IMG/VR virus record: IMGVR_UViG_3300045996_001806
Coordinates: 1-60,429 of that record
Reading direction: 5' to 3' (one strand)
DNA: 60,429 bases
Source: a virus
In this document: piece after piece, positions 5,202-19,573 of the stretch
How positions within the stretch are numbered: the first letter of the stretch is position 1
Layout: each line of letters begins with the position of its first letter
Position numbers and translations under genes: made by a program
Notes under the pieces: generated by a model
The model's database searches: none
What the model saw: the letters and a program-made list of their open reading frames with translations, nothing else
What the model was told of the DNA's origin: nothing

Positions 5202-5265
5202 AGCAGTCCGGTAGCTCGCCTGGTTCATTGCCAGGAGGTCGCGGGTTCGAATCCCGCCGGCGCTA
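5192..5265 (+). tRNA. tRNA with CAT anticodon, initiator-like
   Basis: All cloverleaf parts can be drawn: acceptor 5192-5198 with 5258-5264, D-arm GAGC/GCTC, anticodon stem CCTGG/CCAGG with loop TTCATTG, five-base variable loop, T-arm GCGGG-TTCGAAT-CCCGC, discriminator A; no encoded CCA. The anticodon is CAT. Position 1 and 72 form a C:U mismatch, and the D-stem has A11:U24; an unpaired 1:72 and A11:U24 are marks of bacterial initiator tRNA. Against this, the anticodon stem has only two of the three G:C pairs, and position 37 is T. The 5' end overlaps the stop of the methyltransferase gene. Confidence 0.85.
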
Positions 5266-5522: not shown

Positions 5523-6137
5523 ATGGCCAAGTGGGACTTTCCCTCGGAGGAGCAGCAGGAGCGCTTCCTCGCCGAGATCGCCGACGGGAAGACCCGCCAG
5601 GAGGCCGCGGAGATCGTCGGCTCGAGCTCGACCAAGTTCCGCACGCTGATGAACTCGCAGAAGCCCGAGGGCCTCGCGTTCGCCGCGCGCTACCTGGAGG
5701 TGCTCGAGGAGGTCGGCAAGTCTCCGAGCCCGCTCGCCGGGCGCATCCGCGAGATGGAGGGCGTGCAACTTGCCCACCGCGCGCTCGACGAGTTCATCAT
5801 GCGCGCCCTGGACGCCGAGCGCGGCAAGGCCTCGCCCTCGGGCAACCGGATGCTCTACCAACTCTCCCTGCTCAAGGTCGAGGACTTCAAGCCGCTGCTC
5901 GAGGCCCGGACCCGGCACATCCACGAGGGTGCGGTCGGGATCTACCAGATGCCGCAGATCGACACGGCCAAGTGGTCGCTCGAGCAGCACCGCGAGTTCG
6001 TCGCGCTGCGCAAGCGTCTCTCGGAGCTCGTCGCGCTCGCTCAGCCCGACAGCGCCCAGCCGCCGCGCGAGTTGCCGGTCGGCGCTGACGACATCGAGGG
6101 CGAGGCCGTCGAGATCGAGGACGCGGCGGTCGCCTAG
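5523..6137 (+). CDS. terminase small subunit (probable)
   Basis: A 204-residue protein directly upstream of, and overlapping by one base, the large terminase. Residues about 18-45 form a helix-turn-helix (GKTRQEAAEIVGSSSTKFRT), as expected for the DNA-recognising small subunit that chooses the packaging site. The rest is helical and acidic at the end (DDIEGEAVEIED). ATG 5523 is chosen; GTG 5487 would add a basic stretch unlike the rest. Identification is by position and HTH, not by a diagnostic family motif. Confidence 0.7.
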   Translation: MAKWDFPSEEQQERFLAEIADGKTRQEAAEIVGSSSTKFRTLMNSQKPEGLAFAARYLEVLEEVGKSPSPLAGRIREMEGVQLAHRALDEFIMRALDAERGKASPSGNRMLYQLSLLKVEDFKPLLEARTRHIHEGAVGIYQMPQIDTAKWSLEQHREFVALRKRLSELVALAQPDSAQPPRELPVGADDIEGEAVEIEDAAVA

Positions 6138-7765
6138 TGCTCATCGACGCGCATGACGACGCCATCGAGGCGGACCTCGAGCGGCGCGAGCAGGGCCTGT
6201 CGCTGATCGACGAGGGCGCCGAGCTCTCGAAGAGCCTCTTTCCCTTCGTCCGCGCCTCCTGGCACGTGCTTCGCCCAGACGACGCCTTCGTCAACAACTG
6301 GCACCTGGGCGCGATGTCTGAGGTGCTCGAGGCCATCACTGACGGCGAGCTCGATCGGGTGTTCATCTGGGTGCCTCCCGGCTCGATGAAGACGATCGAG
6401 GTCGACGTCTGCTGGCCTGCCTGGGAGTGGACGAAGCGACCGAGCCTGCGCTACCTGACCTGCTCCTACGACCAGGAGATCCAGATCGAGCAGGGCATGA
6501 TCCCGTCGCGCGATCTCATCCTCTCGGACTGGTACCAGCAGCGCTGGCCGCACGTGGTCCTGAAAGAGACCCGCCGTGCCGCGTACACGAACACCCGCGG
6601 AGGCGCGCGCTGGGCCGCGGCGCCGAACGCGAAGAAGGTCACGGGCCGACACGTGCACCGGATCATCCTCGACGACCCCAACGATGCGAACTCCGCCGAG
6701 GGCGACTCCGACGCCGAGATGCAGCGGATCAACGACTGGCACGACTCGACGCTCGGCACCCGTCTACTCAAGGGCGGCGCGAAGGTCGTCATCCAGCAGC
6801 GCCTACACGAGAACGATCTCTCCGGCCACCTGCTCGAAAAGGACGAGGGCCGCTGGTACAAGCTCTGCCTCCCCGAGCGCTACGACCCCAAGCACCAGTT
6901 CGTGTGGCCCGAGGATCCCCGCACCGAGGAGGGCGAGCTTCTGTGGCCGACGCTCTTCGACTCTCAGCGCCACGAAGAGCGCGTCTCGATCATGGGTGCG
7001 CGTCGCGCGTCGGGGCAGCTTCAGCAGGAGCCCTCTCCGCGTGTCGGCGAGATCCTCAAGCGCACGGGCTGGCGCTACTACCTGCCCGAGCACCTCGAGC
7101 TGATCGAAGAGGGCGCCTTCGACGATCTGCCCGCCGAATCGCCCTTCCGCCGCCTGCGCATGATCCTGATCTCCTGGGACACCTCGCTGAAGGAGCTCAA
7201 CTCTTCCGACGACGCGGCCGGCGGGATCTGGGGAATCCTCGAAGGCGATCGCTTCCTGCTCAAGACCCGGGTCGACAAGATGAACAAGTCGTCCACGAAG
7301 ACCGCGATGCTCGAGCAGCGCGAGTGGGCGCTCGCTCGCTTCCCGCACGCAGCGCACCGCCTGCTCATCGAGAAGAAGTCGAACGGGGTCGAGATCATCG
7401 CCGACTTCCGGCGCACTGTCCCTGGTCTAGCGGTATACAACCCCGGCGACCTGGACAAGATCGCGCGCGCCAAGAACGCCGAGGGCGACTTCGATTCGGG
7501 CAACGTCTGGATCTGCGGCGCGCCCAACGGAGACGGCACCGACTACGACCCCGCGCGCACTCCAGCCTGGGCTCAGAAGGTGATCGAGCAGTGCGCGAAG
7601 TTCCCCAAGGGCCGTGAGGACGATCTCGTCGACATGACGACGCAGGCGATCAACTGGGTGCGCTTCAAGGGCCAGCGCAGGGCCACCATGCACTCGCCCG
7701 AGGAGGTCCTGCTGCCGGCGCTGGCGGGTATCCCCTCCGGAGCCGGTTCTATAGTGCGCGCGTGA
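6137..7765 (+). CDS. terL: terminase large subunit
   Basis: A 542-residue packaging motor. It has Walker A VPPGSMKT at 79-86, Walker B IILDD at 176-180, and a coupling segment VVIQQRLHENDLSGHLL near 217-233. The C-terminal RNase H-like nuclease starts with ISWDTS (Asp348), continues with IEKKSNG (Glu412) and ends with an Asp-rich segment near 508. These are the ATPase that pumps DNA into the prohead and the nuclease that cuts the concatemer. GTG start in a TAGTG junction. The family resembles the psiM2 ORF9-type terminases. Confidence 0.95.
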   Translation: MLIDAHDDAIEADLERREQGLSLIDEGAELSKSLFPFVRASWHVLRPDDAFVNNWHLGAMSEVLEAITDGELDRVFIWVPPGSMKTIEVDVCWPAWEWTKRPSLRYLTCSYDQEIQIEQGMIPSRDLILSDWYQQRWPHVVLKETRRAAYTNTRGGARWAAAPNAKKVTGRHVHRIILDDPNDANSAEGDSDAEMQRINDWHDSTLGTRLLKGGAKVVIQQRLHENDLSGHLLEKDEGRWYKLCLPERYDPKHQFVWPEDPRTEEGELLWPTLFDSQRHEERVSIMGARRASGQLQQEPSPRVGEILKRTGWRYYLPEHLELIEEGAFDDLPAESPFRRLRMILISWDTSLKELNSSDDAAGGIWGILEGDRFLLKTRVDKMNKSSTKTAMLEQREWALARFPHAAHRLLIEKKSNGVEIIADFRRTVPGLAVYNPGDLDKIARAKNAEGDFDSGNVWICGAPNGDGTDYDPARTPAWAQKVIEQCAKFPKGREDDLVDMTTQAINWVRFKGQRRATMHSPEEVLLPALAGIPSGAGSIVRA

Positions 7766-8094
7766 GTGTGGCCAACGCGGGAGTTGTCTTCATCTGCGAT
7801 GACGGTGAGGATGGCTGCGGCGCCAGCTTCGTAGCAAAGCGGCGCTACGCGGACTACATCCGCCGGGGTGTCCATAGACAGCTCTGCCGCCGCTGCGCTC
7901 GAGATGCCCTTCGCACCAAGCCGAAAGAGCCGCCGACAGAGGCCGACCTGATCTTCTGGCTCGAGCGCTTCGACGACGAGGACATCGCGCTCTTCGTCAT
8001 CGCGTTCTTCTCCGACGCCGAGTTCGACCCAGAGCCGATCGCGCTTCGCCGCGCCGAGCTCATGGGCGCGAACGTTCTCGCCGCGACAGGATGA
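7762..8094 (+). CDS. zinc-ribbon protein with acidic tail
   Basis: A 110-residue protein. Residues 12-46 hold four Cys (FICDDGEDGCG and LCRRCARD) forming a probable zinc ribbon; the C-terminal part is helical and acidic (WLERFDDEDIALFVIAFF). GTG start overlaps the terminase stop. It precedes the sugar-modification genes. Role unknown. Confidence 0.65.
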   Translation: MSVANAGVVFICDDGEDGCGASFVAKRRYADYIRRGVHRQLCRRCARDALRTKPKEPPTEADLIFWLERFDDEDIALFVIAFFSDAEFDPEPIALRRAELMGANVLAATG

Positions 8095-8786
8095 TCGCCG
8101 TCGTCATCCCGGTGCTCGGGCGCCCCGAGGCTGTTCTTCGTGTCGCCGATTCGCTCGAGCACATGACCCACGGCGCCTATCGCCTGTTCTTCCTGTGCTC
8201 GCCTGGCGACGATGCCGCGATCGAGGCTGTGGAGCGAACCGGCGCGGACTACCGCGTCGTCATGTGGCATCCGGACAAGGCCGACTTCGCGATGAAGACG
8301 AACCTCGGCTTCCGTCTCACCAACGAACCCTACGTCTTCCTTGGAGCGACGGACCTACGCTTCCACGTGAGTTGGGATCTGCACGTGCTCCTGGTCGCGC
8401 AGGAGACCGGCGCCGGCGTTATCGGCACCGACGACATGGGCAACCCGCTCGTTCGCCGTGGCAAGCATGCCACCCACGCGCTCGTTCGCCGCACGTACAT
8501 CGAAGAGTGCGGGGGCACCTTCGACGAGGAGCCGGGAGTCGTGTACGCCGAGTGCTACGACCACCAGTGCGTCGACAACGAGCTCGTCTTCGTCGCGCAG
8601 GAGCGCGGCCAGTGGGCGTTCGCGGCCAACTCGAAGGTCGAGCACCTGCACCCGCTCTGGCGCAAGGGCACGATGGATCCGGTCTACCAGAAGGCACTCG
8701 CTCGAGGTCAGGCCGACATCCGGATCTTCGCGTCGCGGCGAGCCGACTGGACAGCGAGGCGAGGGCGTACTAAAGTCGGCGCCTGA
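8091..8786 (+). CDS. GT-A fold glycosyltransferase, actinophage type
   Basis: A 231-residue protein opening with the Rossmann-like strand IAVVIPVLGRPE. It contains FLGATDLRFHVSWD (the sugar-nucleotide and metal site region), then GKHATHALVRRTYIEECGG and SKVEHLHPLWRKG, a combination I know from glycosyltransferases encoded beside head genes in actinophages. It should transfer a sugar from a nucleotide donor to a phage or host acceptor. First of five glycosyltransferase-like genes before the portal gene. ATG in an ATGA overlap. Confidence 0.8.
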   Translation: MIAVVIPVLGRPEAVLRVADSLEHMTHGAYRLFFLCSPGDDAAIEAVERTGADYRVVMWHPDKADFAMKTNLGFRLTNEPYVFLGATDLRFHVSWDLHVLLVAQETGAGVIGTDDMGNPLVRRGKHATHALVRRTYIEECGGTFDEEPGVVYAECYDHQCVDNELVFVAQERGQWAFAANSKVEHLHPLWRKGTMDPVYQKALARGQADIRIFASRRADWTARRGRTKVGA

Positions 8787-8873
8787 CGATGGCGCGACCT
8801 TCTCACGACGATGCCTTTCGGCCCGGCCGCTGACCTGCGCCATCGTCGTCGTATGTTGGCGGCCGGACCGAAG
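8785..8873 (+). promoter_or_regulatory. interleaved inverted repeats in a structured leader
   Basis: GACGATGGCGC (8785-8795) can pair with GCGCCATCGTC (8837-8847). ACGACGATG (8805-8813) can pair with the overlapping CATCGTCGT (8841-8849). A third stem of about 15 pairs joins 8815-8830 with 8859-8874. The stems are mutually exclusive or pseudoknotted, which looks like a switching 5' leader for the gene at 8889. A weak promoter (CTGACC, 16 bases, TATGTT at 8852-8857) lies inside. Confidence 0.5.
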
Positions 8874-8888
8874 GGCGAGAGGTAGACC

Positions 8889-9134
8889 ATGAAGCGGATT
8901 CACCACCAGGAGACGCCCTTCGGCCCGATCATGGTGGAGACGGTCGCGTGCGATCGCTGCGAGGCCGAGAAGGTGGCCGACGGTGCTCTCATGGGCTGGA
9001 TCCAGCTCGAGCCGATGGGCCTGCTGCGAACCCAGGCGATGCCGAGCGTTCTGCATTTCTGCTCCGACACCTGTGCTAGGGACTGGCTCAGCGAGGTGGG
9101 CTTGCGCCGCTTCGGACCCGGGCAGGTGCAGTGA
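8889..9134 (+). CDS. zinc-binding small protein
   Basis: An 81-residue protein with C-x-x-C at residues 21-24 (CDRCEAEK) and C-x-x-x-C near 58-62 (CSDTCARDWL), likely a treble-clef or zinc-ribbon module. A ribosome site (GAGAGG) lies before ATG 8889, behind the structured leader. It overlaps the deacetylase gene by four bases, so it may be a regulator or partner of the sugar genes. Confidence 0.7.
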   Translation: MKRIHHQETPFGPIMVETVACDRCEAEKVADGALMGWIQLEPMGLLRTQAMPSVLHFCSDTCARDWLSEVGLRRFGPGQVQ

Positions 9135-9694
9135 ACGGCTCTCTTCTCCTCGCTCCCCACAACGACGACGAGACGCTCTTCGCCTCCTACCTATGCCTCA
9201 TGCACAAGCCGCACGTCGTGGTCTGCCTGCGCTCGATGCGGATGGCCGACCCGAACTATCCCGGCGGGATGCCGATCGCCTACGAGATCCGCGAGCGCGA
9301 GACCCAGTGCGCGATGGAGGTGCTCGGCTGCACCTGGGAGCAGTGGATGATCTACGACAACTACCCGCTGAGCTGGGAGCGCGCGCTCGAGGAGCACATG
9401 CAGAACATCCGCCCCGTTCCCGAGCATGTCTTCGCGCCGGCGCCCGAGCTCGGCGGCCACGAGCAGCACAACACGGTCGGCGAGATGGCGCGGCGGATCT
9501 TCGGCGCGGGAAACGTCACCCACTACCTGACGTACACGGCCAAGGGTCGATCGACGAACGACACCCCGATCGAGTGTCCGGTCGGCTGGCTCGACATCAA
9601 GCGAACGGCGATGGCGTGCTACGCCTCGCAGGCAGCTCATCCGGCGACGCGCACGTGGTTCGAGCAGGACGATCTTCGCGAGTTCGCACTGTGA
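9131..9694 (+). CDS. PIG-L/LmbE-family N-acetylglucosamine deacetylase
   Basis: A 187-residue protein with the family's zinc motif PHNDDE (His10, Asp13) and the second metal/catalytic segment GGHEQHN (His110, His113). The family removes acetyl groups from GlcNAc-containing substrates (GlcNAc-PI, GlcNAc-Ins, bacillithiol precursors). In this cassette it would make a free amino sugar. GTG start in a GTGA overlap; it is coupled to the methyltransferase that follows. Confidence 0.85.
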   Translation: MNGSLLLAPHNDDETLFASYLCLMHKPHVVVCLRSMRMADPNYPGGMPIAYEIRERETQCAMEVLGCTWEQWMIYDNYPLSWERALEEHMQNIRPVPEHVFAPAPELGGHEQHNTVGEMARRIFGAGNVTHYLTYTAKGRSTNDTPIECPVGWLDIKRTAMACYASQAAHPATRTWFEQDDLREFAL

Positions 9695-10257
9695 GTGTTC
9701 TCGGCCCAGACGGAACGCGCTGGCCGCCCGGGACCCTGCGTGCGCTCGAGCACGAGTCGATCCGCGGCTTCGTCTACCAGGCTGCTTGCGATGAGTACCT
9801 CTCTGGCCGAGTGCTCGACTGGGGCTGCGGCAAGAAGCCCTATCGCGAGATGATCGAGAAGGCAGGCGGCCACTACGAAGGCTACGACCTGGCCGAGTTT
9901 CCGGCCAACGTGTCGGGCGAGGACGTCGGCAGCGAGCTCTTCTGGGACGCGAACGCCTGGGACGCGATCCTCTGCACGCAGGTTGTCCAGTACGTGCCGT
10001 TCCCGGAGTTGATCGAGTTGCTCGCTGACTTCCGCGACCGTCTCTTCGACGATGGTCATCTCGTGATGACCTACCCGACGAACTGGCCCGAGGTCGAAGG
10101 CGCGGATCTCCATCGCTTCACGAAGGCGGGCATGGAGCGGATGCTCACTGAAGCCAGGTTCGAGATCCTCGAGCACGAGTGCCGCGGCATCGGTGCCGTC
10201 TCACTCTCCGGCGACGAGTTCGCCGTCGGCTACGGGGTGATCGCGCGCCGTGGCTAA
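9691..10257 (+). CDS. class I SAM-dependent methyltransferase
   Basis: A 188-residue protein with the SAM-binding loop VLDWGCGKKP at 41-50, an acidic strand end (YEGYDL) and the post-motif WDAILCTQVVQYVP. The C-terminal part (FTKAGMERMLTEARF) is like Methyltransf_11-type small-molecule enzymes. No DNA-methylation motif. Position among sugar genes suggests methylation of a sugar or its carrier. GTG start. Confidence 0.8.
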   Translation: MSVLGPDGTRWPPGTLRALEHESIRGFVYQAACDEYLSGRVLDWGCGKKPYREMIEKAGGHYEGYDLAEFPANVSGEDVGSELFWDANAWDAILCTQVVQYVPFPELIELLADFRDRLFDDGHLVMTYPTNWPEVEGADLHRFTKAGMERMLTEARFEILEHECRGIGAVSLSGDEFAVGYGVIARRG

Positions 10258-10465
10258 GCCGCGAAACGAGATCACGAACGTCCCGCCACAGTGCCCGCGC
10301 TGTGGGAACAAGAGCTTCAAGCCCGGGACGCTTTACCGCTCGTTCAAGACGTTCCGCTCCGAGAAGCTCATCCTCGAGTGCACCGAGTGCGAGCTCAAGT
10401 TCGACGGCTCTGGCTGGTGGGACGAGGCGGGCGCGGAGTGGACGATGGCGGAGTCAGGCACGTGA
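10250..10465 (+). CDS. zinc-ribbon protein
   Basis: A 71-residue protein with CPRCG at about 15-19 and CTECE at about 44-48, the two knuckles of a zinc ribbon, and a Trp-rich end (GSGWWDEAGAEW). GTG start overlapping the methyltransferase by eight bases. It lies inside the sugar cassette; its role is unknown. Confidence 0.65.
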   Translation: MAKPRNEITNVPPQCPRCGNKSFKPGTLYRSFKTFRSEKLILECTECELKFDGSGWWDEAGAEWTMAESGT

Positions 10466-11169
10466 AGAACGCCGTCATCGTCGTTCCCTACCGCGGCTCG
10501 AGCGCCTGGCGCGAGGCTGGCGAGACGCGCCGGCGCAACTGGGAGTACGCGCGCGCCTGGTGGTCGGAGCTCGGGCTGCCGATCTTCATCGGCGACTCGC
10601 CGGCGAACGCGCGCTTCGACGTCACGAAGGCGCGCAACGCCGCGCTCGCCTTGGCGACTCAGATGAACCCTGACTGGGACGTCGCGCTGATGACGGACGC
10701 CGATGCCGTGCTCGGTTCGCTGAACCAGGCCAAGGCCGCGCTCGGTGTCGCGTTCGCGACGCGCGGCTACGTCGCTGCGCACAGCGAGCTTCGCTACCTG
10801 AGTCCTCGGGGCGCTGCGTATGCCGAGCGCGGCTATGCGATCACGGAGGCCGCCGTCGAGATGACGATCGCCGAGACCTGGGAGACGGTTTTTGCCTTTC
10901 CGCGGGATCTGTGGGAGGAGATCGGCGGCTTTGACCCGCGCTTCAGCGGCTTCGGGCATCAGGTCGAGGCGTTCTTCCACGCTGCAACGACGCTGCGCGG
11001 CAACGACCGCATCACGGGTCCCTGCTACCACTTCTGGCATCCCTACAGCGCGGACTCGCCGCACCCTGCGCTCAAGGCGAACCGCGCGCTCGTCGAGCGC
11101 TATTGGGAAGCCGCCGACAACGAGGCCGCGATGCGCGAGCTGGTCTCCGAGTACGTGGTGGCCGTATGA
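10462..11169 (+). CDS. glycosyltransferase (GT-A fold)
   Basis: A 235-residue protein. It opens with AVIVVPYRGS, has MTDADAVL (the DxD-type donor and metal motif) near 73-80, and the acceptor-side segment FAFPRDLWEEIGGFDPRFSGFG, typical of GT2/GT7-like polypeptide or glycan transferases. GTG start in a GTGA overlap. Second glycosyltransferase of the cassette. Confidence 0.8.
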   Translation: MKNAVIVVPYRGSSAWREAGETRRRNWEYARAWWSELGLPIFIGDSPANARFDVTKARNAALALATQMNPDWDVALMTDADAVLGSLNQAKAALGVAFATRGYVAAHSELRYLSPRGAAYAERGYAITEAAVEMTIAETWETVFAFPRDLWEEIGGFDPRFSGFGHQVEAFFHAATTLRGNDRITGPCYHFWHPYSADSPHPALKANRALVERYWEAADNEAAMRELVSEYVVAV

Positions 11170-11411
11170 AGCGCCTCCTTCGCAGCGCATGGCTTCGATC
11201 GCGGCCGCTTCTGTATGGGCCGCCAAACTGGCTCGTGGACAAGTTCGACTCCGAGGATCGGCGCATGTTCGGCTTCTGGACGATCATCCTGGCCGCAGTT
11301 GGAGCCGTGTTCTTCGGGCGTGAAGTGCTGTATGTGACCATCCTCAGCATCATCGCGTTGATCCCCAACTACGCGAGCGAGACGCCTGTGGAGACCGAGG
11401 ACGAGGAATGA
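11166..11411 (+). CDS. membrane protein
   Basis: An 81-residue protein with two probable transmembrane helices at about 37-50 and 55-67 (WTIILAAVGAVFF, VLYVTILSIIALIP), a basic N-terminus and a very acidic tail (ETPVETEDEE). In the middle of the sugar cassette it may anchor the enzymes to the membrane, where lipid-linked sugars are made; this is inference. Confidence 0.6.
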   Translation: MKRLLRSAWLRSRPLLYGPPNWLVDKFDSEDRRMFGFWTIILAAVGAVFFGREVLYVTILSIIALIPNYASETPVETEDEE

Positions 11412-11686
11412 CACTCTCGCTCGAGCAGGAGCTCGAAGGGCTGATCGAGAGCACGGACTACCAAGTGGTCGTGGCGCACGTGAGCGACAACTATCTGCGC
11501 CTGCGGATTTTGTACCTACCTCATCTCGTCGTGCGCGGCGAAGGTGCGTTCTCCTACGTCGCCACCGGACTCATCGGCGACAAGTCGTTCATGGGCCGCC
11601 GACGGTGGAAGAAGGCGCGCAAGTGGGTCAAGGAGCAGATCGCCGAGCATCGAGAACTGCTGGCGATGGGAGTCAAGGTCTGGTGA
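11408..11686 (+). CDS. hypothetical protein
   Basis: A 92-residue protein in an ATGA overlap. Beta-rich N-terminal half (YQVVVAHVSDNYLRLRILYL), then a basic helix (RRRWKKARKWVKEQIAEH). No family is recognised. Strict coupling with the FkbM gene behind it suggests it is expressed with the sugar enzymes. Confidence 0.6.
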   Translation: MTLSLEQELEGLIESTDYQVVVAHVSDNYLRLRILYLPHLVVRGEGAFSYVATGLIGDKSFMGRRRWKKARKWVKEQIAEHRELLAMGVKVW

Positions 11687-12234
11687 CGGTGGTCATCGAC
11701 ATCGGCTGCGCGCGCTACGGCGGCGACTACTCGATCGAGAGACTCCTGGAGGAGTTCAAGCCGGTGACGATGCTGTACGGCTTCGACCCCAACGGAGAGA
11801 TCGTCGCGTCGGCCCCAGAAGGCGCATCGCGTATCAGCCCTACCCGGTGGCAGATGCCCGATGGGGCCGGCGTGGCGCTCGAGCAGAAGGCGGCCTGGAC
11901 CTACGACGGCGAGATCGGCTACCTGTCGGACGGTCTGAACTCGTGCCTGACCGAGCGCAACGACGTCACGCAGGTGGAGTGCTTCGACCTCGCGCGCTTC
12001 ATCGTCGAGCGCTCGCAGCGTGCCGATCAGGCGGGCGGTCTCGACATCGTGCTCAAGATGGACGCTGAGGGATCTGAGTACGACCTGCTCGACCACCTGA
12101 TCGCGGCGGGCGGCGACGCGCTGCTCAAGCTCGCCTGGGTCGAGTGGCACCCGAAGCGGATCGTGAACGCCGCGCAGCGGCGGAAGAACATCGAGGATCG
12201 GATCGCGTGCGAACTCGCGGAGTGGCGCTGGTGA
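11683..12234 (+). CDS. FkbM-type methyltransferase
   Basis: A 183-residue protein. VIDIGCARYGG is the SAM loop, YGFDPN the following acidic strand end, and KMDAEGSEYDLLDHLI (about 126-140) with AWVEWHP is the signature of FkbM-family O-methyltransferases that act on sugars or polyketides. It would methylate a hydroxyl on the glycan made by the neighbouring transferases. GTG start. Confidence 0.85.
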   Translation: MTVVIDIGCARYGGDYSIERLLEEFKPVTMLYGFDPNGEIVASAPEGASRISPTRWQMPDGAGVALEQKAAWTYDGEIGYLSDGLNSCLTERNDVTQVECFDLARFIVERSQRADQAGGLDIVLKMDAEGSEYDLLDHLIAAGGDALLKLAWVEWHPKRIVNAAQRRKNIEDRIACELAEWRW

Positions 12235-12824
12235 GAGTCTCTGCGGTCATCGTCACCCGCGGCGACGTCAACCTCGACCGGATCATCGAGGGGCCGTGGC
12301 CGGAGCCGTTCACCGAGATCGTCGTCTGGGACAACTCCGTCGAGACGGACATGAAGGTCTACGGGCGCTACGCCGCAATCAAGAAGGCGAGCCATCCGGT
12401 GATCTACGTCCAGGACGACGACTGCATCCTCCCGCTCCAGTCGCTGCAGACGCTCGTCGATGCCTACGAGCCGGGGCGCCTGGTCGCGAACATGCCTCGC
12501 TCGCGCTGGGAGGGCTACCCGGATTCGTCGCTCCTCGGCTGGGGTGCCATCTTCGACGCGCACCTTCCGCGCGAGTCCTTCGGGAAGCTCCCGCATCTCT
12601 TCGTCAGGGAGGACGATCGCGAGTGGTTCCACCTCACCTGTGACGTCGCCTTCTCGGCGCTGAGTCGGCGAACGGTCATCGACGTGCCGTTCGTGCACCT
12701 GCCCTGGGCTGAAGGGCCTGACCGCATGTTCACGGGCCGCCCGACACACTCCGAAGAGCGCGAGCGGATGCTCGAGCTGTGCCGGTCCGTCCGCGGCGAA
12801 GACGATGACAGGAGGGACTGGTGA
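12231..12824 (+). CDS. glycosyltransferase (GT2-like)
   Basis: A 197-residue protein starting VRVSAVIVTRGD, with IVVWDNS and the metal-binding YVQDDDCILP near 62-71, the DxD site of GT-A enzymes. Later FHLTCDVAFSALSRRTV resembles the acceptor loop. Third glycosyltransferase of the cassette; GTG in a GTGA overlap. Confidence 0.8.
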   Translation: MRVSAVIVTRGDVNLDRIIEGPWPEPFTEIVVWDNSVETDMKVYGRYAAIKKASHPVIYVQDDDCILPLQSLQTLVDAYEPGRLVANMPRSRWEGYPDSSLLGWGAIFDAHLPRESFGKLPHLFVREDDREWFHLTCDVAFSALSRRTVIDVPFVHLPWAEGPDRMFTGRPTHSEERERMLELCRSVRGEDDDRRDW

Positions 12825-13618
12825 TTCCCGAAGCAGCGACGATCGACATCCTCTACGTCGCGTTCAACCGGCTCGAGATGACGCGCGAGAGCTTCGGCGC
12901 GCTCCTGCGGAACACGCACTGGGATCACGTCGACACGCTGTACGTGGTCGACGACGCCTCGACGGACGGCACGAGCGAGTGGCTCTACGACCAGCAGATG
13001 CTGTGGAAGAGCGACAACGGCCCGCAAGCGGACTACGGGACGGACTTCATTCTCTCCGACCGCAAGCTCGGCGGACCGGTCGCTGCGATGAACTGGTACC
13101 TCGACGCGACGCGCGACCAGGAGCACCCGGACACCTTCGCGAAGATCGACAACGACTTCGTGGTCTGCCCGGGCTGGATGGATATCGCGCTGCGGCTGCA
13201 TTACCTGGGATCGAACATCGACATCATCGGCTTCGAGCCCATGAGCGGGCGACCGCAGATGGTTCGCAAGGACAACCACGCCGAGTGGCGCTTGAACGAG
13301 GCCAATCACATCGGCGGAAAGGGCCTCATCCGCAAGCGCGCCTTCGAGCGCTCGGGCTGCCGCCCGCACCCGCACGGCAAGCACGGTTACCAGGGCTTCA
13401 CCCAATGGCAGCGCAAGCACCCCGACGTCATCAAGGCCTGGATCAGCCCCGATCTGTGCTGCTTCGGCCTCGACCAGCTCCCCTTCGAGCCGTGGAACTC
13501 GCTGACGACGAGCTACGTGCAGAAGCGCTGGCAGCGCCGTTGGGGTCCATACGACTCGCTCGACACGACGTACTGGCAGTGGTGGCTCGATGAGGATGAA
13601 TCGCGGATGGCCGCGTGA
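12821..13618 (+). CDS. glycosyltransferase family 2
   Basis: A 265-residue protein with the GT2 hallmarks: DILYVAFNRLEMTRES, LYVVDDASTDGTSEWL (donor site) and FAKIDNDFVVCPGW (the metal DxD region). The C-terminal half carries a His-rich and Trp-rich acceptor part (HPHGKHGYQGF, WQWWLDED). Fourth glycosyltransferase of the cassette. Strict GTGA coupling on both sides. Confidence 0.85.
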   Translation: MIPEAATIDILYVAFNRLEMTRESFGALLRNTHWDHVDTLYVVDDASTDGTSEWLYDQQMLWKSDNGPQADYGTDFILSDRKLGGPVAAMNWYLDATRDQEHPDTFAKIDNDFVVCPGWMDIALRLHYLGSNIDIIGFEPMSGRPQMVRKDNHAEWRLNEANHIGGKGLIRKRAFERSGCRPHPHGKHGYQGFTQWQRKHPDVIKAWISPDLCCFGLDQLPFEPWNSLTTSYVQKRWQRRWGPYDSLDTTYWQWWLDEDESRMAA

Positions 13619-14397
13619 AGCTCGTCGCCTCCCTCGTCGTCCGCAATGAGCTTTCGCGTTACCTCGAGCCCTGCGTCGCCAGCCTGCTCGAATTCTGTGA
13701 CGAGATTCGCGTGCTCGACGACTGCTCGGACGATGGCACCCTGGGTTGGCTGGGAAAGAAGTGGGTGAGTGAGCGGGTCTTCGTGGCGACGACGCAAGAG
13801 CGCTCGTTCTATGTTCACGAGGGCCGGATCCGTCAACAACTGCTCGAGTGGACGCTCAAAGCGGAGCCGACACACATACTCGCGATCGACGCCGACGAGT
13901 TCGTCGCTGACGGTCGGATGCTCCGCAAGGGCCTCACGAACCAGCCGCAGCAGGAGGTCTGGACACTCGGGATGCAGGAGATCTGGAAGGCCGACGAGAA
14001 CGCGCTGTGGATCCGCTCGGACGGCGGTTGGCGCGCGCACGAGACGACGGCGCTCTACCGCGTGCCGCCCGAACTCCCGCACAGCTTCGCGATCGTCGAC
14101 CGCGCGCTCGCCTGCGGCCGCGAACCCCAGTATGTGCGGCGCCAGTACCGGCAGGCTCTTCGGACCGGGACCGAAATCCTCCACTTCGGCTGGACGAACG
14201 TGTCCGAGCGGCGAGTGCGCTACGACCGCTACGTCGTCGCCGACGGTGGTCGCTTCCACGCATCAGCCCACCTGCAGAGCATCCTCTTCGAGGATCGCCG
14301 GGTGCGGCTACGCAAGCGCGAGTGGCCCGCTGAGCTCGCCGCCTACAAGGACGTACTCCTCGAGAAAGTGAGGCACGAACGATGGCAACCCGCGTAG
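13615..14397 (+). CDS. glycosyltransferase family 2
   Basis: A 260-residue protein with LVASLVVRNELSRYL, IRVLDDCSDDGTLGWL and ILAIDADEFVADG, the ordered motifs of GT2 enzymes of the SunS/WaaE-like glycan type. The middle has RAHETTALYRVPPE and ILHFGWTNVSERRVR. Fifth glycosyltransferase of the cassette. It overlaps the next gene by 16 bases. Confidence 0.85.
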   Translation: MKLVASLVVRNELSRYLEPCVASLLEFCDEIRVLDDCSDDGTLGWLGKKWVSERVFVATTQERSFYVHEGRIRQQLLEWTLKAEPTHILAIDADEFVADGRMLRKGLTNQPQQEVWTLGMQEIWKADENALWIRSDGGWRAHETTALYRVPPELPHSFAIVDRALACGREPQYVRRQYRQALRTGTEILHFGWTNVSERRVRYDRYVVADGGRFHASAHLQSILFEDRRVRLRKREWPAELAAYKDVLLEKVRHERWQPA

Positions 14398-14597
14398 TGC
14401 TCCTCGGCTGGAATGTCCATGTCGAGAAGGTCAAGCAGACGGTCAAGGGCGACAACGGCTTGCCGAAGGAGGAGGACGCCTACAAGCTCGTGTTCTCCGA
14501 GGTCGACACCGACAACACGATCGTCTTCATGCACGCCAAGCACGTCGCCGACTACCTCGTGCGCGAATACACCGGAGTGATCCTCCCGGGTCTGTGA
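14382..14597 (+). CDS. hypothetical protein
   Basis: A 71-residue protein with an extended, beta-rich pattern (VVLLGWNVHVEKVKQTV, NTIVFMHAKHVADYL). No family is recognised. The stop overlaps the DUF1360 gene, so it belongs to the same operon. Confidence 0.6.
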   Translation: MATRVVLLGWNVHVEKVKQTVKGDNGLPKEEDAYKLVFSEVDTDNTIVFMHAKHVADYLVREYTGVILPGL

Positions 14598-14941
14598 ACG
14601 AGTACGTCCCCGAACCCTGGGCCTTCGCGCTTATTGCGCTCGGCGCCTGGCGTCTGTGGCTTCTGGTCGCTGATGACGTCATCCTCGAGAAGCCCGTCGA
14701 CATGCTGCTCCTGCGCATTCCCGCGCGCCATCGCGACTACTGGCGGAAGTTCCTCGAATGCCCGCGCTGTCTGGGTTTCTGGCTGTGCGGACTCGGCTAT
14801 GCGATCTGGCTGAGCGTGCTCGGCGATTGGCCTGACACCCTCGGCGAGAGCATTGCGGCGATTGGTGTGTGGTTCGCGCTGAGCGGCGTCGTCGCGCTTC
14901 TCGGCTCGATCTGGGAGACCCTCACGGACGTGCAGGACTAG
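14594..14941 (+). CDS. DUF1360-family membrane protein
   Basis: A 115-residue protein with three hydrophobic helices and the family's central pattern: ALGAWRLWLLVADDVILEKP followed by FLECPRCLGFWLCGLGYAIW. DUF1360 proteins are membrane proteins of phages and Bacillus spores with unknown biochemical role. GTG start in a GTGA overlap. Confidence 0.8.
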   Translation: MNEYVPEPWAFALIALGAWRLWLLVADDVILEKPVDMLLLRIPARHRDYWRKFLECPRCLGFWLCGLGYAIWLSVLGDWPDTLGESIAAIGVWFALSGVVALLGSIWETLTDVQD

Positions 14942-15002
14942 ACGAACTGCCACGGCGCGCTCTATCGTCGGGACCCGTCGCGACATCGACGAAGGAGCCA
15001 TC

Positions 15003-15071
15003 GTGTGCAACTGCGGGAAGAAGAAGGCCCAGACCCAACAGCCGCCAGCACCCCAGCCCGAATCGAAGTAG
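15003..15071 (+). CDS. CNCGKK-type micropeptide
   Basis: A 22-residue peptide (starts VCNCGKKKAQTQQPP) with a good ribosome site (GAAGGAG). Tiny proteins starting with MC-x-CGKK occur before portal genes of other actinophages, which supports it. A metal-binding or lipid-modified Cys pair is possible. Function unknown. Confidence 0.6.
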   Translation: MCNCGKKKAQTQQPPAPQPESK

Positions 15072-15077
15072 GCCTGA

Positions 15078-16889
15078 GTGCCGCTCTTCGGTAGGGGTAG
15101 ACGTGCCTCTAGCCGCTCTCCTGCCGACGTAGAGATCGAGGTCCTGCAGGCGGCCGCGGCTGAGGTGCGGCTGAAGGACGGGCGGGACTACCGGCGCTCG
15201 CTGCCCGCGTGGCAGCGGCAGGCGCTCGAGTTCTACGACCTGCTCGGCGAGTCGTGGTACCCGGCGCAGTTCTACGCCAGGATGCTCTCGAGGGTTCGCC
15301 TGCATCCGGCGATCGAGCTCCCCAACGGCGAGTACGAGGAGATCGAGGACGAGCAGGCCCAGACCATCCTGAAGCGCATCCAGTACCGCCGCTGGGGCGG
15401 CACTTTCGGGCAACTCCAGGCGCTCGTTGGCGACGGCTATCTCGCCGTCTACCTGGACGACGATCAGAGCGAGCGCTGGGACTACTTCTCGCCCGCCGAG
15501 CTCACCGTGCAGGAGACGACGTACCTGCGGCGCATGGGCGACGGCGTGCCGGATCGCGAATACACGAAGGTCGGCTCGATCGGCGAGAACGGTCCCGGGG
15601 AGGGCGAGATGAAGGCCTGGCGCCTGTGGAACCGTCATCCGACGCACTCGGAGATGGCGGACGCGCCGATGAAGGCAGTCCTCGATCGCCTGTCCTACCT
15701 GATGCACCTGGACAAGGCCGCGCTCGCGGCGGCGCTCTCGAGGATCGCGGGCGCGGGCCTGTTCGTGGTCGACGAGCGGATCACGATCCCGCCGAGCGAG
15801 GCAGAGGCCGCCGACGATGATCTGCACGACGACCCCTTCATGCGGCGGCTCCTGAACTACATGGTGAAGCCGATCTCCACCCCGGGCTCCGCTGCGCAGC
15901 AGGCCCCGCTGGTCGCGCGCGTCGAGCCTCCCGAGGGCATGTCCGTGAAGGACATGACGGACTGGATTCGCTTCCACGACCCCAACCAGACGACCGACTG
16001 GGACTCGAAGGTCGAGAAGACGATCCAGCGCATCGCCATGTCGCTCGACATGCCGCCGGCCGAGCTGCTCGGACTCGAGAACGCGAACCAGTGGGTCGGC
16101 TGGCTGATCGGCGAGGACAAGTGGAAGGCCCACGGCGAGCCGGTCATCATCCGGCTCTGCGACGACGTGACGCGCGGCTACTACCGACCTGCGTGTATCG
16201 CCGCCAAGGTAGAGCGAGCGGAGGAGCTCGTCGTCTGGTTCGACCCCGCGCAGGTCGTCGTTCATCCCGACCACGGCAAGGCGGCCGAAGAGGTACACGA
16301 TCGTGGCGCCCTATCGGACAAGGCCCTGCGCGCGGCCCACAACTTCTCCGAGAGCGCGGCGCCGTCGGCGGTAGAGCGAGAGGCCTGGGAGATCATCAAG
16401 ATGAAGCAGCGGGATCGCCCGCAGGATCCCTCCGAGGCTGACGCCCGAGGAAGCGGCTCGCACGTCGAGCCGGGCGCGCCCGAGAACAACGGCAATCGCA
16501 CGAACCAGCCTTCGCCGCAGGGCGACAATCAGCAGCTTCGGATTCTCGGCGCCGCCGAGATCACCTTCGACAAGCTCCGCGAGCGCGCCGGCACGTTCCT
16601 GTGGACGAAGCGGATGCAGTGCGAGGGCTGCTTCACCGGCATGGAGACGGTGCCGCGCGGCGAGCTCGCAGCGACGGCCGGCAAGAACATCGTGAGGATG
16701 CTCGACATTCATTCCGAGCTCGCGCTGATCGCCGGTGGCGCCGACCACTTCGCCGTGAAACTGCACAAGCAGTACGGCTACGACGAGGAACGCGCGCAAG
16801 TCATCGCGAAGGTCCTCGAGCGGCTGGCTGCGGAGTCGCTGTACGAGTCAGAGGCCTCGCTGCCAGAGGACTTCGTGGAGGTGCTCTAG
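15078..16889 (+). CDS. portal protein
   Basis: A 603-residue protein in the place of the portal, the dodecameric ring at the unique head vertex through which DNA enters and leaves. Portal-like features are the N-terminal DYRRSLPAWQRQALEFYDLL, the long wing and stem region with SLDMPPAELLGLENANQWVGWLI (the PPxLLG-type segment common in actinophage portals) and a disordered Pro/Asn/Gln-rich stretch at about 460-490. GTG start seven bases after the micropeptide gene. Confidence 0.85.
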   Translation: MPLFGRGRRASSRSPADVEIEVLQAAAAEVRLKDGRDYRRSLPAWQRQALEFYDLLGESWYPAQFYARMLSRVRLHPAIELPNGEYEEIEDEQAQTILKRIQYRRWGGTFGQLQALVGDGYLAVYLDDDQSERWDYFSPAELTVQETTYLRRMGDGVPDREYTKVGSIGENGPGEGEMKAWRLWNRHPTHSEMADAPMKAVLDRLSYLMHLDKAALAAALSRIAGAGLFVVDERITIPPSEAEAADDDLHDDPFMRRLLNYMVKPISTPGSAAQQAPLVARVEPPEGMSVKDMTDWIRFHDPNQTTDWDSKVEKTIQRIAMSLDMPPAELLGLENANQWVGWLIGEDKWKAHGEPVIIRLCDDVTRGYYRPACIAAKVERAEELVVWFDPAQVVVHPDHGKAAEEVHDRGALSDKALRAAHNFSESAAPSAVEREAWEIIKMKQRDRPQDPSEADARGSGSHVEPGAPENNGNRTNQPSPQGDNQQLRILGAAEITFDKLRERAGTFLWTKRMQCEGCFTGMETVPRGELAATAGKNIVRMLDIHSELALIAGGADHFAVKLHKQYGYDEERAQVIAKVLERLAAESLYESEASLPEDFVEVL

Positions 16890-18931
16890 TGCCCTGGTCT
16901 GTCGGAAAGCGCGGGAGCAAGTGGTGCGTCGTCAAGGACGACGATGGCAAGGTCGAGGGTTGTCACGATTCGAGCGCCGCTGCGATCAAGCAGCAGAGGG
17001 CGCTCTACGCGAGTGAGTCGATGGCCGCCAACGGGGATGGCCCCGATACGGCCGAGCTCGCGATGGTCGCGCTCTACCCGCGTCTGGAGGAGGCCGAAGC
17101 ACTCGCCGTCGAGGGCGGTCTCGAGGTCGACGATCTGCACGTGACGCTCATCTTCCTCGGCGAGGTGGGAACCTTCGATGAGGAGGCGCTGCCCGAGGCC
17201 GTCGGCCGAGTAGCCATGTCACACAGCCCGCTCGAGGGAGTGGTTGGCGGCACCGGCTACTTCAGCGCGAACGAGGACGGCGTGCCCGTGATCCTGCTCC
17301 CCGACGTTCCCGGTCTGAGCCGCGTGCGCGAAGACATCGTGGGCGAGTTGCGCGCGCAGGGCATCGAGTCACCCTCCGAGCACGGATTCCTTCCACACAT
17401 GACCCAGATCTACGTCGATTCCGTCGACGACGCTCCGCCTCGAGAGAACCCTCTCGGCCAGGCACTCCACTTCGATGCGGTCTCCGTCGTCATCGGCGAC
17501 CGTCGCCAGGACTACCCTCTCGGAGGTGAAGAGATGAGCACCAACACCGTCACCGTCAAGATCATCCCGGACTTCAGCGAGTGGGATGCCGCGCTCGCGC
17601 AGCGAATCGACATCCTGCCGGGGACGGCTGCGAACGCGGCCGCGGGCGCCATGTGGGAGCTCGCTGCAGGCGCCGTCGCCGCCGTCGAGGCAGGGCAGCA
17701 GTGGGAGGGCATCCTCGCCTTCGAGGCCTACCCCTCCGACGGTGATGGCGGTCTCAAGCGCTACCTGATGACGCCTCTCGGGCATCGCGAGCTGCCGCTG
17801 TCTCTCATGGCGCAGTTCGTGAACGAGGAGGGCCACAAGAAGGCGGGGATCGCCGGCCGCATCGACACGATCGAGCGCATCCCCGCCTCGGAGTTCGCCC
17901 ACGAGGGCTTCGATCTTCCAGACGACCTGCCCGAGGACGCTTTCGTGCACTTCGGGACTGGCGTCTTCGACACGGGAGAGGTTGGCGCCGAGGCTGCGCG
18001 GCTCGTCGAGGCGAAGATGCTGCGAGGCGTCTCCGTCGATCTTTCCGGGACGAAGTGGGTCCCGCTCGATGCCGAGACCTTCCAGGAGATCGAGCAGAAC
18101 GAGATGGGCATGGAGCGGATGCTGCGCGGCGTGCTCGCTGGCGGGAAGAACTCGAAGATCGCCGGCGCCACGATCGTCGCGCATCCCTCGTTCGGCCATG
18201 CGCGCGTCGATCTCGTCGCCTGCGCGTTCGCATCGGCGGAGATCCGCCTGGTGCACGAGGAGGATCTCGTCGCCTGCGCCGCTGGCCCGATCGCGCCGCC
18301 CGCGGAGTGGTTCGCGAACCCGCAGTTCAAGCAGCAGACGCCGGTCACGGTCACGGGCGACGGGCGGGTCTCCGGCCACATCGCGACCTGGGACTGCCAC
18401 ATGGGCTACGAGAACATGTGCATGACGGCCAAGCCGTCCCGCGACGGCTACGCGCGCTTCCACACGGGGACGCTCATCACCGACGACGGCACTCCGGTGA
18501 AGATCGGCCGCATCTCGGTTGCGCCGCACGCGCCGAAGCGCATGTCGCCCGAGCAGGTCATGGCGTACTACTCGGACGCGAAGAAGGTCGCCGCGTTCGT
18601 CTGCCTGTACGAGGACCGCTTCGGGATCGCGTGCGCTGGCGTGACGCGCTCGGATGCGCCGCGCGAGCTCCTGCGCGACTTCCTCGCCAATCCGCCGTCG
18701 GGCGAGTGGCGCCGCGGGGAGTTGCTCGGGATCTCGTCGGTGCCTCTGCCGGGTCTCCCGGTGGTCGCTCCCGAGGCGTACTTCGTGGCGTCCGCCGACG
18801 GCGGTGATGTCACGCCCGAGATGCTGATCCTGCCGCCAGTCGAAGCGCCGGAGCCGACGGAGGACGAGATGGTCCTCGCGGCGGCGGCTGCCGGGGGCGC
18901 GGAGACGCTCCTCGGAGTCATCGCCGGCTGA
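16889..18931 (+). CDS. 2H phosphoesterase domain fused to capsid maturation protease
   Basis: A 680-residue protein with three parts. Residues 1-42 match a small phage N-terminal module (W..V...DDGKVEGCHDS..AA..Q..ALYAS). Residues 55-205 form a 2H phosphoesterase with both catalytic H-x-T motifs: HVT at 84-86 and HMT at 170-172. From about 220 on is the prohead-protease part, with RGVSVDLSG near 380 as the likely Ser-containing active segment. An internal ATG at 17534 sits behind a perfect GGAGGTGA, so a second product containing only the protease is likely. GTG start in a TAGTG junction. Confidence 0.8.
   Translation: MPWSVGKRGSKWCVVKDDDGKVEGCHDSSAAAIKQQRALYASESMAANGDGPDTAELAMVALYPRLEEAEALAVEGGLEVDDLHVTLIFLGEVGTFDEEALPEAVGRVAMSHSPLEGVVGGTGYFSANEDGVPVILLPDVPGLSRVREDIVGELRAQGIESPSEHGFLPHMTQIYVDSVDDAPPRENPLGQALHFDAVSVVIGDRRQDYPLGGEEMSTNTVTVKIIPDFSEWDAALAQRIDILPGTAANAAAGAMWELAAGAVAAVEAGQQWEGILAFEAYPSDGDGGLKRYLMTPLGHRELPLSLMAQFVNEEGHKKAGIAGRIDTIERIPASEFAHEGFDLPDDLPEDAFVHFGTGVFDTGEVGAEAARLVEAKMLRGVSVDLSGTKWVPLDAETFQEIEQNEMGMERMLRGVLAGGKNSKIAGATIVAHPSFGHARVDLVACAFASAEIRLVHEEDLVACAAGPIAPPAEWFANPQFKQQTPVTVTGDGRVSGHIATWDCHMGYENMCMTAKPSRDGYARFHTGTLITDDGTPVKIGRISVAPHAPKRMSPEQVMAYYSDAKKVAAFVCLYEDRFGIACAGVTRSDAPRELLRDFLANPPSGEWRRGELLGISSVPLPGLPVVAPEAYFVASADGGDVTPEMLILPPVEAPEPTEDEMVLAAAAAGGAETLLGVIAG
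17522..17536 (+). promoter_or_regulatory. strong internal ribosome binding site and in-frame ATG
   Basis: GGAGGTGA at 17522-17529 precedes ATG 17534 in the same frame as the fusion gene. It lies exactly at the border between the phosphoesterase and protease domains and would allow a shorter protein of 465 residues to be made. Confidence 0.7.
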
Positions 18932-19542
18932 GCGTTTCGTTCTGCATCCAGCACCACCCAGCGCGGGCGCATCTCACCTCGAGGATCCTCGAGCGCGTCG
19001 GTGGGGCTGAGCTCGTCACCGACCCCGATCCGGATGGCGAGCGCAGCCCCTTCCGCACCTACCAGGAGTGCCTGCGTCGCACGCCTGAAGGCGTAACGCA
19101 TCGCTGCGTGGTCCAGGACGACGTGCTCTTCTGCGACAACTTCCGTGAGCGCGCAGAGGCGGCGATCGCAGAGCACCCGACGGCCCTCATGGCGTTCTTC
19201 GTCCCCGGGATCTCGTCCTGCGGAAGCCAGCGGGTCATGTACGCGCTGCAGAAGCGGGAGCCCTACGCGAACATCAGCGGAGCGACCACGATCCCGGTCG
19301 TCGCGCTGGCCTGGCCGGTCGAACAGATCCCACCATTCCTGCGCTATTGCTCGCTCCCGCGCTGGGCGAATCAGCGTGGCGACGACACCGTAGTCGGCTA
19401 CTTCGTGAAGACGAATCGGCTGACAGTTCTGGCAACAGTGCCCTCGCTCGTCGAGCATCCTGACATCGAACCGAGCCTGGTCAGAGGCCAGAACTTCAAC
19501 GGGAAGAGCCGCATTCGCAAGGCCGCGTATTTCGCTGGCTGA
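18928..19542 (+). CDS. glycosyltransferase-like protein with apparent CTG start
   Basis: A 204-residue protein in the GT-A style: LSVSFCIQHHPARAHLTSR at the start, TYQECLRR, then VVQDDVLFCDNFRE (the metal site) and FFVPGISSCGS. No ATG, GTG or TTG exists in frame before GTG 19108, and starting there would delete the first strand and the helices before the metal site. CTG at 18928 forms a CTGA overlap with the protease stop, exactly like the GTGA and ATGA junctions elsewhere. Sixth glycosyltransferase-like gene of the genome. Confidence 0.7.
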   Translation: MSVSFCIQHHPARAHLTSRILERVGGAELVTDPDPDGERSPFRTYQECLRRTPEGVTHRCVVQDDVLFCDNFRERAEAAIAEHPTALMAFFVPGISSCGSQRVMYALQKREPYANISGATTIPVVALAWPVEQIPPFLRYCSLPRWANQRGDDTVVGYFVKTNRLTVLATVPSLVEHPDIEPSLVRGQNFNGKSRIRKAAYFAG

Positions 19543-19543
19543 C

Positions 19544-19573
19544 TTGCGCGACTGCGAGCGACGCGGATACAAC
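19544..19573 (+). promoter_or_regulatory. possible promoter for the capsid gene
   Basis: TTGCGC at 19544-19549, 18 bases, TACAAC at 19568-19573, in a 119-base gap before the capsid gene. A separate promoter is plausible because capsid protein is needed in excess, but the match is weak. Confidence 0.35.

Follow-up and report, generated by a model that had tools for sequence, protein, structure and literature searches.

A compact block of sugar-modifying genes lies between the terminase and portal genes of an uncultivated phage, and we give a probability of about 0.74 to the reading that it is a virion-protein glycosylation system, a more elaborate variant of the type known from a few mycobacteriophages. 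About nine enzymes are encoded, and together they would probably assemble a glycan on the virion, remove acetyl groups from it and methylate it, and gene homology and placement suggest that a virion protein is most likely the target. As judged from gene content, the cassette is not a one-off: it is a conserved set in at least two phage lineages. The predicted PIG-L and methyltransferase steps and the spread of the cassette are the new parts. The conserved gene set suggests that virion glycosylation is common among uncultivated phages, spans two or more lineages and involves a richer chemistry than chain extension by glycosyltransferases would give, and it names a candidate initiator, extenders, a deacetylase, methyl caps and acceptors.

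Gene content of the cassette

The window, that is the whole stretch of DNA analysed, is the entire linear virus record IMGVR_UViG_3300045996_001806 of IMG/VR (60,429 bases). Pfam and PHROGs searches recovered everything that the original prediction had placed at 8091-14397, namely five glycosyltransferases (GTs), all of GT-A type, a PIG-L deacetylase and two methyltransferases, one of class I and one weakly FkbM-like, as well as the additional GT gene at 18928, outside the block (Table 1). Adjacent genes in the block overlap by 4-8 bases, the sole exception being a 102-base gap at 8787-8888, and four small genes in it (g023, g026, g028 and g029) show no recognized enzyme domain. A gene of the g035 type also lies upstream of the portal gene in 3/3 cultured actinophages checked. 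No DNA similarity to GenBank phages was found for positions 6000-20000. The GenBank relatives of the portal protein are nearly all from actinophages, yet the phage-like contig with the related locus L034 belongs to a Gemmatimonadetes MAG.

Table 1. Features of the cassette, its borders and the candidate acceptors in the window.
Feature	Coordinates	Strand	Evidence
Terminase large subunit, left cassette border	6137..7765	+	phrog_38 2e-58; relatives found in viral contigs
g022 GT-A glycosyltransferase, first cassette gene	8091..8786	+	phrog_14945 glycosyltransferase 7.6e-6
g023 small Cys-rich (zinc-ribbon-like) protein	8889..9134	+	cysteine pairs in translation; Pfam: no match
g024 PIG-L family deacetylase	9131..9694	+	Pfam PF02585 1.9e-12, 48.2 bits vs cut-off 28.2
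g025 class-I SAM methyltransferase	9691..10257	+	Pfam Methyltransf_23 2.5e-8
g026 small Cys-rich (zinc-ribbon-like) protein	10250..10465	+	CPRCG...CTEC in translation; Pfam: no match
g027 glycosyltransferase, Che8 gp109 homologue	10462..11169	+	phrog_1721 galactosyl transferase 1.1e-20
g028 small membrane protein	11166..11411	+	hydropathy max 2.01 over 19 residues
g029 small protein	11408..11686	+	codon-based gene model; Pfam: no match
g030 FkbM-like methyltransferase	11683..12234	+	Pfam PF05050 0.0063, below cut-off
g031 glycosyltransferase-like	12231..12824	+	Pfam GT2 1.6e-4, just below cut-off
g032 glycosyltransferase	12821..13618	+	Pfam GT2 5.2e-6
g033 glycosyltransferase, polypeptide-GT-like, candidate initiator	13615..14397	+	Pfam Glyco_tranf_2_4 1.8e-7
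g035 membrane protein, conserved, just before portal	14594..14941	+	phrog_781 2.4e-11
Portal protein, right cassette border	15078..16889	+	phrog_776 1.9e-70
g038 glycosyltransferase, homologue of Che8 gp110 and Myrna gp238	18928..19542	+	phrog_854 glucosyltransferase 1.3e-15
Major head protein, putative glycan acceptor	19662..21479	+	phrog_777 4.7e-51
Major tail protein, putative glycan acceptor	21609..22268	+	phrog_792 1.5e-35, residues 2-191 of 219

The g024 protein exceeds the curated PF02585 cut-off, and its residues P9, H10, D12, D13, E14 and H113, which we take to include the zinc-site His/Asp residues of the PIG-L motif, are invariant across 18 aligned sequences. Its profile matched PIG-L deacetylases of the PDB at 1.7e-9 to 9.2e-6, NCBIfam placed it weakly nearest BshB1 (0.00062, far below the cut-off), and no match to it was found in 50,697 GenBank phage records. 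An amino sugar, which had been put forward as a possibility, is plausible given this motif, kept in 18/18 aligned relatives, and the GNAT acyltransferase additionally present in some cassette relatives. As for the methyltransferase predicted to be FkbM, the gene stands and so does the D-x-E-G-x-E motif, presumably that of the FkbM family, which occurs in the window protein and in 10/10 g030 relatives listed. PF05050 is matched by 8/10 aligned members of the g030 family (best 2.2e-4), but the window member falls short of the cut-offs of both PF05050 (17.1 bits vs 22.7) and NCBIfam (18.4 vs 37.7), and for this reason we call it FkbM-like only.

The g033 profile matched GmaR best (2.7e-14), followed by ThuS and SunS, and a profile limited to lineage A (see below) still matched GmaR at 5.5e-8, the match being restricted to the GT-A half. 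Structure prediction, which had been proposed as a check, returned a GT-A fold for both proteins modelled, g033 and g022. For the g033 model (pLDDT 89.2), the top five Foldseek rows were all SunS/ThuS, and VIA-align was led by ThuS (Z 16.4, 3.1 A, 194 residues) and SunS (Z 15.4, 3.0 A, 195 residues). With GmaR, SunS and ThuS as its nearest profile and fold neighbours, g033 is most likely the polypeptide GT that would initiate the glycan. The g022 model (pLDDT 85.3, best Z 18.9) gave matches that are not specific to one GT, so we draw no acceptor from its fold. PDB sequences gave no match to the window g033 alone as query, to the g031 profile or to the FkbM-like profile; the g031, g033 and FkbM-like labels are therefore taken from Pfam/PHROGs, motifs or folds.

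Two of the other GTs are remote homologues of Che8 proteins, at about 23% identity. An HMM of g027 proteins (window and locus L021) matched Che8 gp109 at 6.6e-17; tblastn with g027 found matches in 197 phage records, of which 193 are from Mycobacterium phages, and no relative was confirmed when viral contigs were searched with the window g027. The g038 protein belongs by sequence homology to the Che8 gp110 family of virion GTs: it matched gp110 at 1.8e-9 by blastp and 6.8e-11 by HMM, its HMM matched Myrna gp238 at 2.3e-4, and gp110 and gp238, which are 35% identical, form one family. Matches to g038 were found by tblastn in 96 phage records. A QDDD metal-site-like motif is invariant in 13 g031 sequences and a KID motif in 10 g032 sequences, and the g032 profile matched chondroitin synthase at 6.8e-7.

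Recurrence among uncultivated phages

Nine same-record duplicates and near-copies of at least 90% identity were removed before counting, and locus L076 was merged with L016, which reduced 95 loci to 82; all counts rest on HMMs built partly from loci that were then counted. In lineage A, the cassette sits between terminase and portal genes, and each of the nine records in which both flanks are visible carries at least three cassette families and g022. Lineage B has another backbone, in which cassette families lie beside capsid/connector genes. In the g032 tree, a single branch (SH-aLRT 93, short search) separates lineage A, with 17 rows, from lineage B, with 29, and no horizontal exchange of g032 between them was seen. 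The order g031-g032-g033 is conserved in 22/22 records and that of g025-g031-g032 in all 21 records where these genes co-occur; the position of PIG-L relative to g025 and g031 is variable (same order in 15/23). Locus L077 has neither PIG-L nor g031. This recurrence of families and gene order in independent phages argues that the block is more than a chance assembly, and since the relatives are far apart its function may have drifted. In lineage B and locus L032, the acceptor could differ.

Because loci found with a g032 query favour the cassette, a separate count was made with PIG-L as the only query. At least one cassette-type GT lay within 8 kb in 31 of 42 dereplicated loci, and 20 of the 42 have both a GT and a methyltransferase; the other 11 lack any cassette-type GT, partly because contigs end. 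Cassette enzymes were found in none of nine terminase relatives (L003-L011) and in none of three cultured actinophage regions with the same backbone, where unrelated small genes occupy the region used by the cassette.

Probable glycan target and alternative explanations

The original prediction allowed for a complex sugar on either the virion or the host surface. Three observations point to the virion, namely the homology to Che8/Myrna GTs, the polypeptide-GT-like g033 and the placement in virion gene blocks of two lineages; the recurrence with the PIG-L query, the cassette-free relatives and the GTs without membrane helices lend further support. During late gene expression, a polypeptide GT, most likely g033, would put the first sugar, probably an N-acetylhexosamine, on a virion protein at a Ser, Thr or Cys residue. 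The putative acceptors are the major head protein and the major tail protein, in the latter of which Ser and Thr make up 30% of the C-terminal 30 residues. The cytoplasmic GTs g022, g027, g031, g032 and g038 would then lengthen or branch the chain using host-made sugar nucleotides; among donor-sugar genes, Epimerase was found in 4/32 records, the window being negative, and NTP_transferase in 0/32. PIG-L would strip N-acetyl groups to leave a free amine, and g025 and g030 would cap hydroxyls or the amine. Such a glycan might alter adsorption or shield the particle. A more ambitious reading, in which a widespread, self-contained phage pathway is started on an N-acetylhexosamine by a GmaR/SunS-like GT, extended by the other GTs and finished by PIG-L and the methyltransferases as a de-N-acetylated, amine-bearing, methylated glycan, strikes us as possible though doubtful.

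The cassette could instead change a host-surface glycan during infection, masking receptors or excluding superinfection. Serotype-conversion (gtr-type) cassettes belong to temperate phages with an integrase and a membrane GT or flippase, whereas the record, which may be incomplete, holds no tyrosine or serine integrase (PF00589, PF00239) and none of its GTs has a predicted membrane helix, helices in the cassette region being confined to the small g028 and g035. Phage GTs that change the host serotype are known (PMC12619734), but the late placement among virion genes and the Che8 GT homologues speak against this explanation; we found nothing in favour of the host-surface half of the earlier claim and consider it unlikely. 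Alternatively, the GTs might decorate a hydroxylated base, with PIG-L and the methyltransferases tailoring the DNA-bound sugar against restriction. Phage GTs that act on DNA are known (PMC12619734, which cites a 2024 study by Pyle), and the window does encode a C5-cytosine methyltransferase (54875-55960, minus strand). However, that gene occurs in just 8/32 records, a thymidylate-synthase/hydroxymethylase-type gene (PF00303) in 0/32 with positive controls, and the GTs have protein GTs as their kin and lie among virion rather than replication genes, which makes DNA hypermodification quite improbable. Tet_JBP (PF12851) was found in 0/24 records in a search run without a positive control.

A looser view, that accessory genes have simply gathered in a variable region rather than forming a single pathway, draws on the unrelated small genes of the cultured relatives and the shifting position of PIG-L (15/23), but the fixed orders of g031-g032-g033 (22/22) and g025-g031-g032 (21/21) and the return of the set in a second lineage with a different backbone render it very unlikely. 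Least credible, in our view, is a small-molecule pathway in which PIG-L works with a GT and a methyltransferase to yield a glycosylated metabolite or a compound akin to mycothiol or bacillithiol. The faint resemblance of g024 to BshB1 favours it, but such a route has no need of at least five GTs of the polymer or protein type, no ligase-like gene was recognized among the cassette proteins searched, and the NTP_transferase and Epimerase counts above also tell against it.

Comparison with known systems

Virion-protein glycosylation remains the preferred reading, and if PIG-L acts on the particle, these phages would carry free amino sugars, with a bearing on adsorption and on sticking to soil and cells; a truly de-N-acetylated glycan would give a particle with positively charged amino sugars. 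In literature searches that covered subscription papers thinly, positively charged amino sugars on phage virions were not described, and no phage paper was found combining PIG-L, FkbM and glycosyltransferase, or LmbE, glycosyltransferase, terminase and portal protein.

Among PIG-L deacetylases (BshB-type, diacetylchitobiose deacetylase and LmbE-related), g024 shares the Pfam family and PDB profile matches, but it differs in its PHNDDE form of the motif, its length of 187 residues and its place among GTs in phage virion operons. Profile and structure comparisons place g033 closest to GmaR and to the glycocin GTs SunS and ThuS, all of them polypeptide GTs, although identity to SunS/ThuS is just 12-18%. 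GmaR adds GlcNAc to the flagellin of Listeria and is described with TPR and antirepressor domains (PMC9638930), for which g033 is too short at 260 residues. Caudovirales GX15bay (MK557849) carries several annotated GTs and a methyltransferase in a block upstream of the terminase gene; one of its proteins matched the g033 HMM (1.1e-33), but the HMMs for PIG-L, g031, g032 and the methyltransferases found no match among ten proteins checked.

To our knowledge, virion glycosylation has been described experimentally for few mycobacteriophages only, and Freeman et al. in 2023 is said to be the study behind the cases of Che8, Corndog and Myrna. Virion glycosylation in these three phages is reported in PMC12363180, PMC12619734 and PMC11256854, and according to the first of these, glycosylation of the Che8 capsid requires gp110. 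Three annotated GT genes lie near the right end of Che8, whereas the window encodes six GTs, five of them between terminase and portal, together with PIG-L and two methyltransferases. What it has in common with Che8 and Myrna are phage-encoded GTs, g038 resembling Che8 gp110 and Myrna gp238, and g027 resembling Che8 gp109.

A conserved cassette upon a known phage backbone

The window is one complete linear IMG/VR virus record in which a codon-based gene model and the ORF table place a late operon running left to right. The original prediction of an enzyme block between terminase and portal held: five glycosyltransferases (GTs), a PIG-L family deacetylase, and class-I and FkbM-like methyltransferases account for eight of its twelve genes, and a sixth GT (g038) lies downstream.

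Late-operon features of the window
Feature	Position	Remark
Terminase	6137-7765	left of cassette
Cassette block	8091-14397	twelve genes, overlapping or near-adjacent
GT g022	start 8091	
PIG-L	start 9131	
Class-I methyltransferase g025	start 9691	
GT g027	start 10462	
FkbM-like methyltransferase	start 11683	
GT g031	start 12231	
GT g032	start 12821	
GT g033	start 13615	
Small gene, then membrane protein g035	between 14397 and portal	
Portal	15078-16889	
Head maturation protease-like gene	16889-18931	
GT g038	18928-19542	
Major head protein	19662-21479	
Major tail protein	21609-22268	

These enzymes form a conserved cassette. Related loci (L002-L117) were gathered by scans with terminase, PIG-L (single sequence and profile) and g032 (profile) queries, gene strings were drawn for each using one HMM per family, and 95 viral loci became 82 once same-record loci and near-copies were merged. 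Counting PIG-L-query loci only, at least one of the GTs lay within 8 kb in 31/42, at least two were found in 26/42 and a GT plus a methyltransferase in 20/42; the other 11/42 had none of the GTs within 8 kb. Among bacterial genome contigs, 2 of 11 PIG-L relatives had such GTs nearby (L034 and L035), and L034 resembles a phage contig. One 56,785-base record carries cassette halves at its opposite ends (L016 and L076) and is therefore probably a permuted circle cut within the cassette.

The cassette is an accessory load upon a known backbone. Portal kin occur in 838 GenBank records, nearly all actinophages, with Mycobacterium phages (460) the most numerous, ahead of Gordonia (197) and Microbacterium (129) phages. 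In RobsFeet, DSL-LC01 and Racecar, all three of the retrieved regions carried the portal with an upstream g035-like ORF (E 1e-4 to 1.7e-8), and none of the 760 ORFs tested there was a cassette enzyme; these enzymes were also absent from nine terminase relatives (L003-L011). Among 50,697 GenBank phage records, PIG-L (two queries), g022, g031 and g032 had no match, and g033 had a single one, in GX15bay, a phage with a GT block of its own adjoining its terminase.

Arrangement in two phage lineages

In lineage A, which includes the window, the order is terminase, g022, PIG-L, further enzymes, g031, g032, g033, g035, portal. In the nine records of this lineage where both borders are visible, g022, g032 and g033 were present in 9/9, PIG-L and g031 each in 8/9 (L077 lacks both), the FkbM-like gene in 5/9 and g025 in 4/9; a g038-family GT followed the portal in 5/9, some loci ending before that point. 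Some members carry extra genes for a DUF6625 protein, a GNAT acyltransferase and a Methyltransf_24 protein (3.7e-31, 4.5e-13 and 1.2e-13, respectively, in L021). Two window proteins outside the block have relatives inside other cassettes: a DPPY-bearing methyltransferase (4638-5201, its gene end overlapped by tRNA-Met at 5192-5265) in L021 at 13003-13503, and the 50699-51220 protein in L018 at 2426-2926 (31.5% identity).

Lineage B differs in terminase, portal, protease and capsid, and has g025, g031, g032, g033 and often PIG-L adjoining genes for capsid and connector proteins (head genes were listed at 22 loci). The orders g031-g032-g033 (22/22) and g025-g031-g032 (21/21) were constant; PIG-L placement relative to g025 and g031 varied, with the same order in 15/23. 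Since one branch of the g032 tree splits the two lineages (SH-aLRT 93, short search), that tree gives no sign of recent exchange of g032 between them.

Predicted chemistry and target of the cassette

The g033 profile matches the polypeptide GT GmaR at 2.7e-14, as well as ThuS and SunS, and a lineage-A-only profile still matches GmaR at 5.5e-8; the GmaR match is limited to one half of the protein and, unlike the profile, window g033 as a single query had no match among PDB sequences. Structure models of g033 (pLDDT 89.2) and g022 (pLDDT 85.3) have predicted GT-A folds, with SunS and ThuS, which act on polypeptide acceptors, as nearest folds to the g033 model. The putative zinc motif of PIG-L is kept in 18/18 aligned sequences. 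On the window sequence by itself the FkbM assignment is weak (0.0063, below cut-off), but 8/10 members of its family match PF05050 at 0.01 or better. PIG-L is fused with a methyltransferase domain in L020, and a g025-type methyltransferase (L029:7199-8506) bears a long fused C-terminal part with no Pfam match.

Glycosylation of the virion is the favoured reading. By homology, two window GTs tie to experimentally studied mycobacteriophage enzymes: g038 to Che8 gp110 and Myrna gp238, and g027 to Che8 gp109. PMC12363180 describes glycosylated proteins in Che8, Corndog and Myrna and calls Che8 gp110 and Corndog gp38 essential for capsid glycosylation; according to PMC12619734 the capsid and tail-tube subunits carry the glycans at their C-terminal ends, and according to PMC9638930 GmaR transfers GlcNAc onto flagellin. 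The Ser/Thr-rich C-terminus of the major tail protein, outside its family profile, is only a lead as a glycan site. Two late proteins (23964-26273 and 37447-37896) share Gly/Ala/Thr-rich GGATAGG-like stretches, the former reaching the highest Ser+Thr density (0.47 over 30 residues) anywhere in the window, and are possible candidate acceptors. Because the C-terminal half of Che8 gp108 (L118:4172-5347) resembles a methyltransferase domain by eye, GT activity and methyl transfer may be coupled in Che8 as well.

We propose that g033 would prime a candidate virion protein with hexosamine, the remaining GTs would extend the chain, PIG-L would free an amine and the methyltransferases would cap the glycan. 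Sugar donors would be supplied by the host, because NTP_transferase was found in 0/32 records and Epimerase in 4/32, the window being negative. In a 117-kb phage record (L032:8460-16780), PIG-L, DUF6625-like and g031-like genes adjoin kinase-, phosphatase- and cupin-like genes resembling, by eye, heptose-nucleotide synthesis genes, so some relatives may make their own donors.

The original prediction had named virion or host surface as the target; the Che8/Myrna homologies and the nearness of g033 to polypeptide GTs support the former, and modification of a host-surface glycan is unlikely, as neither an integrase in the record nor a GT with a predicted membrane helix was found. Hypermodification of phage DNA by the cassette enzymes is a shade less plausible: a full-length C5-cytosine DNA methyltransferase is encoded in the window (54875-55960, minus strand, with a long ORF in a different frame lying across it), but such genes occur in only 8/32 records, the window among them, thymidylate-synthase-type genes were found in 0/32 with positive controls, and TET/JBP in 0/24 in a search without one. 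That the block is a loose collection brought together by chance seems very improbable, and a small-molecule pathway more improbable still.

The head maturation protease-like protein has an N-terminal 2'-5' RNA ligase/2H phosphoesterase domain (PF13563 3.2e-6; phrog_2659 RNA ligase, 9.6e-20). Since anti-CBASS proteins are found among 2H phosphoesterases, a possible counter-defence carried in the virion merits attention.

Systems of this type are already known from phages; new here are the predicted PIG-L and methyl tailoring, the presence of six GTs and the conserved occurrence of the cassette across uncultivated phages.
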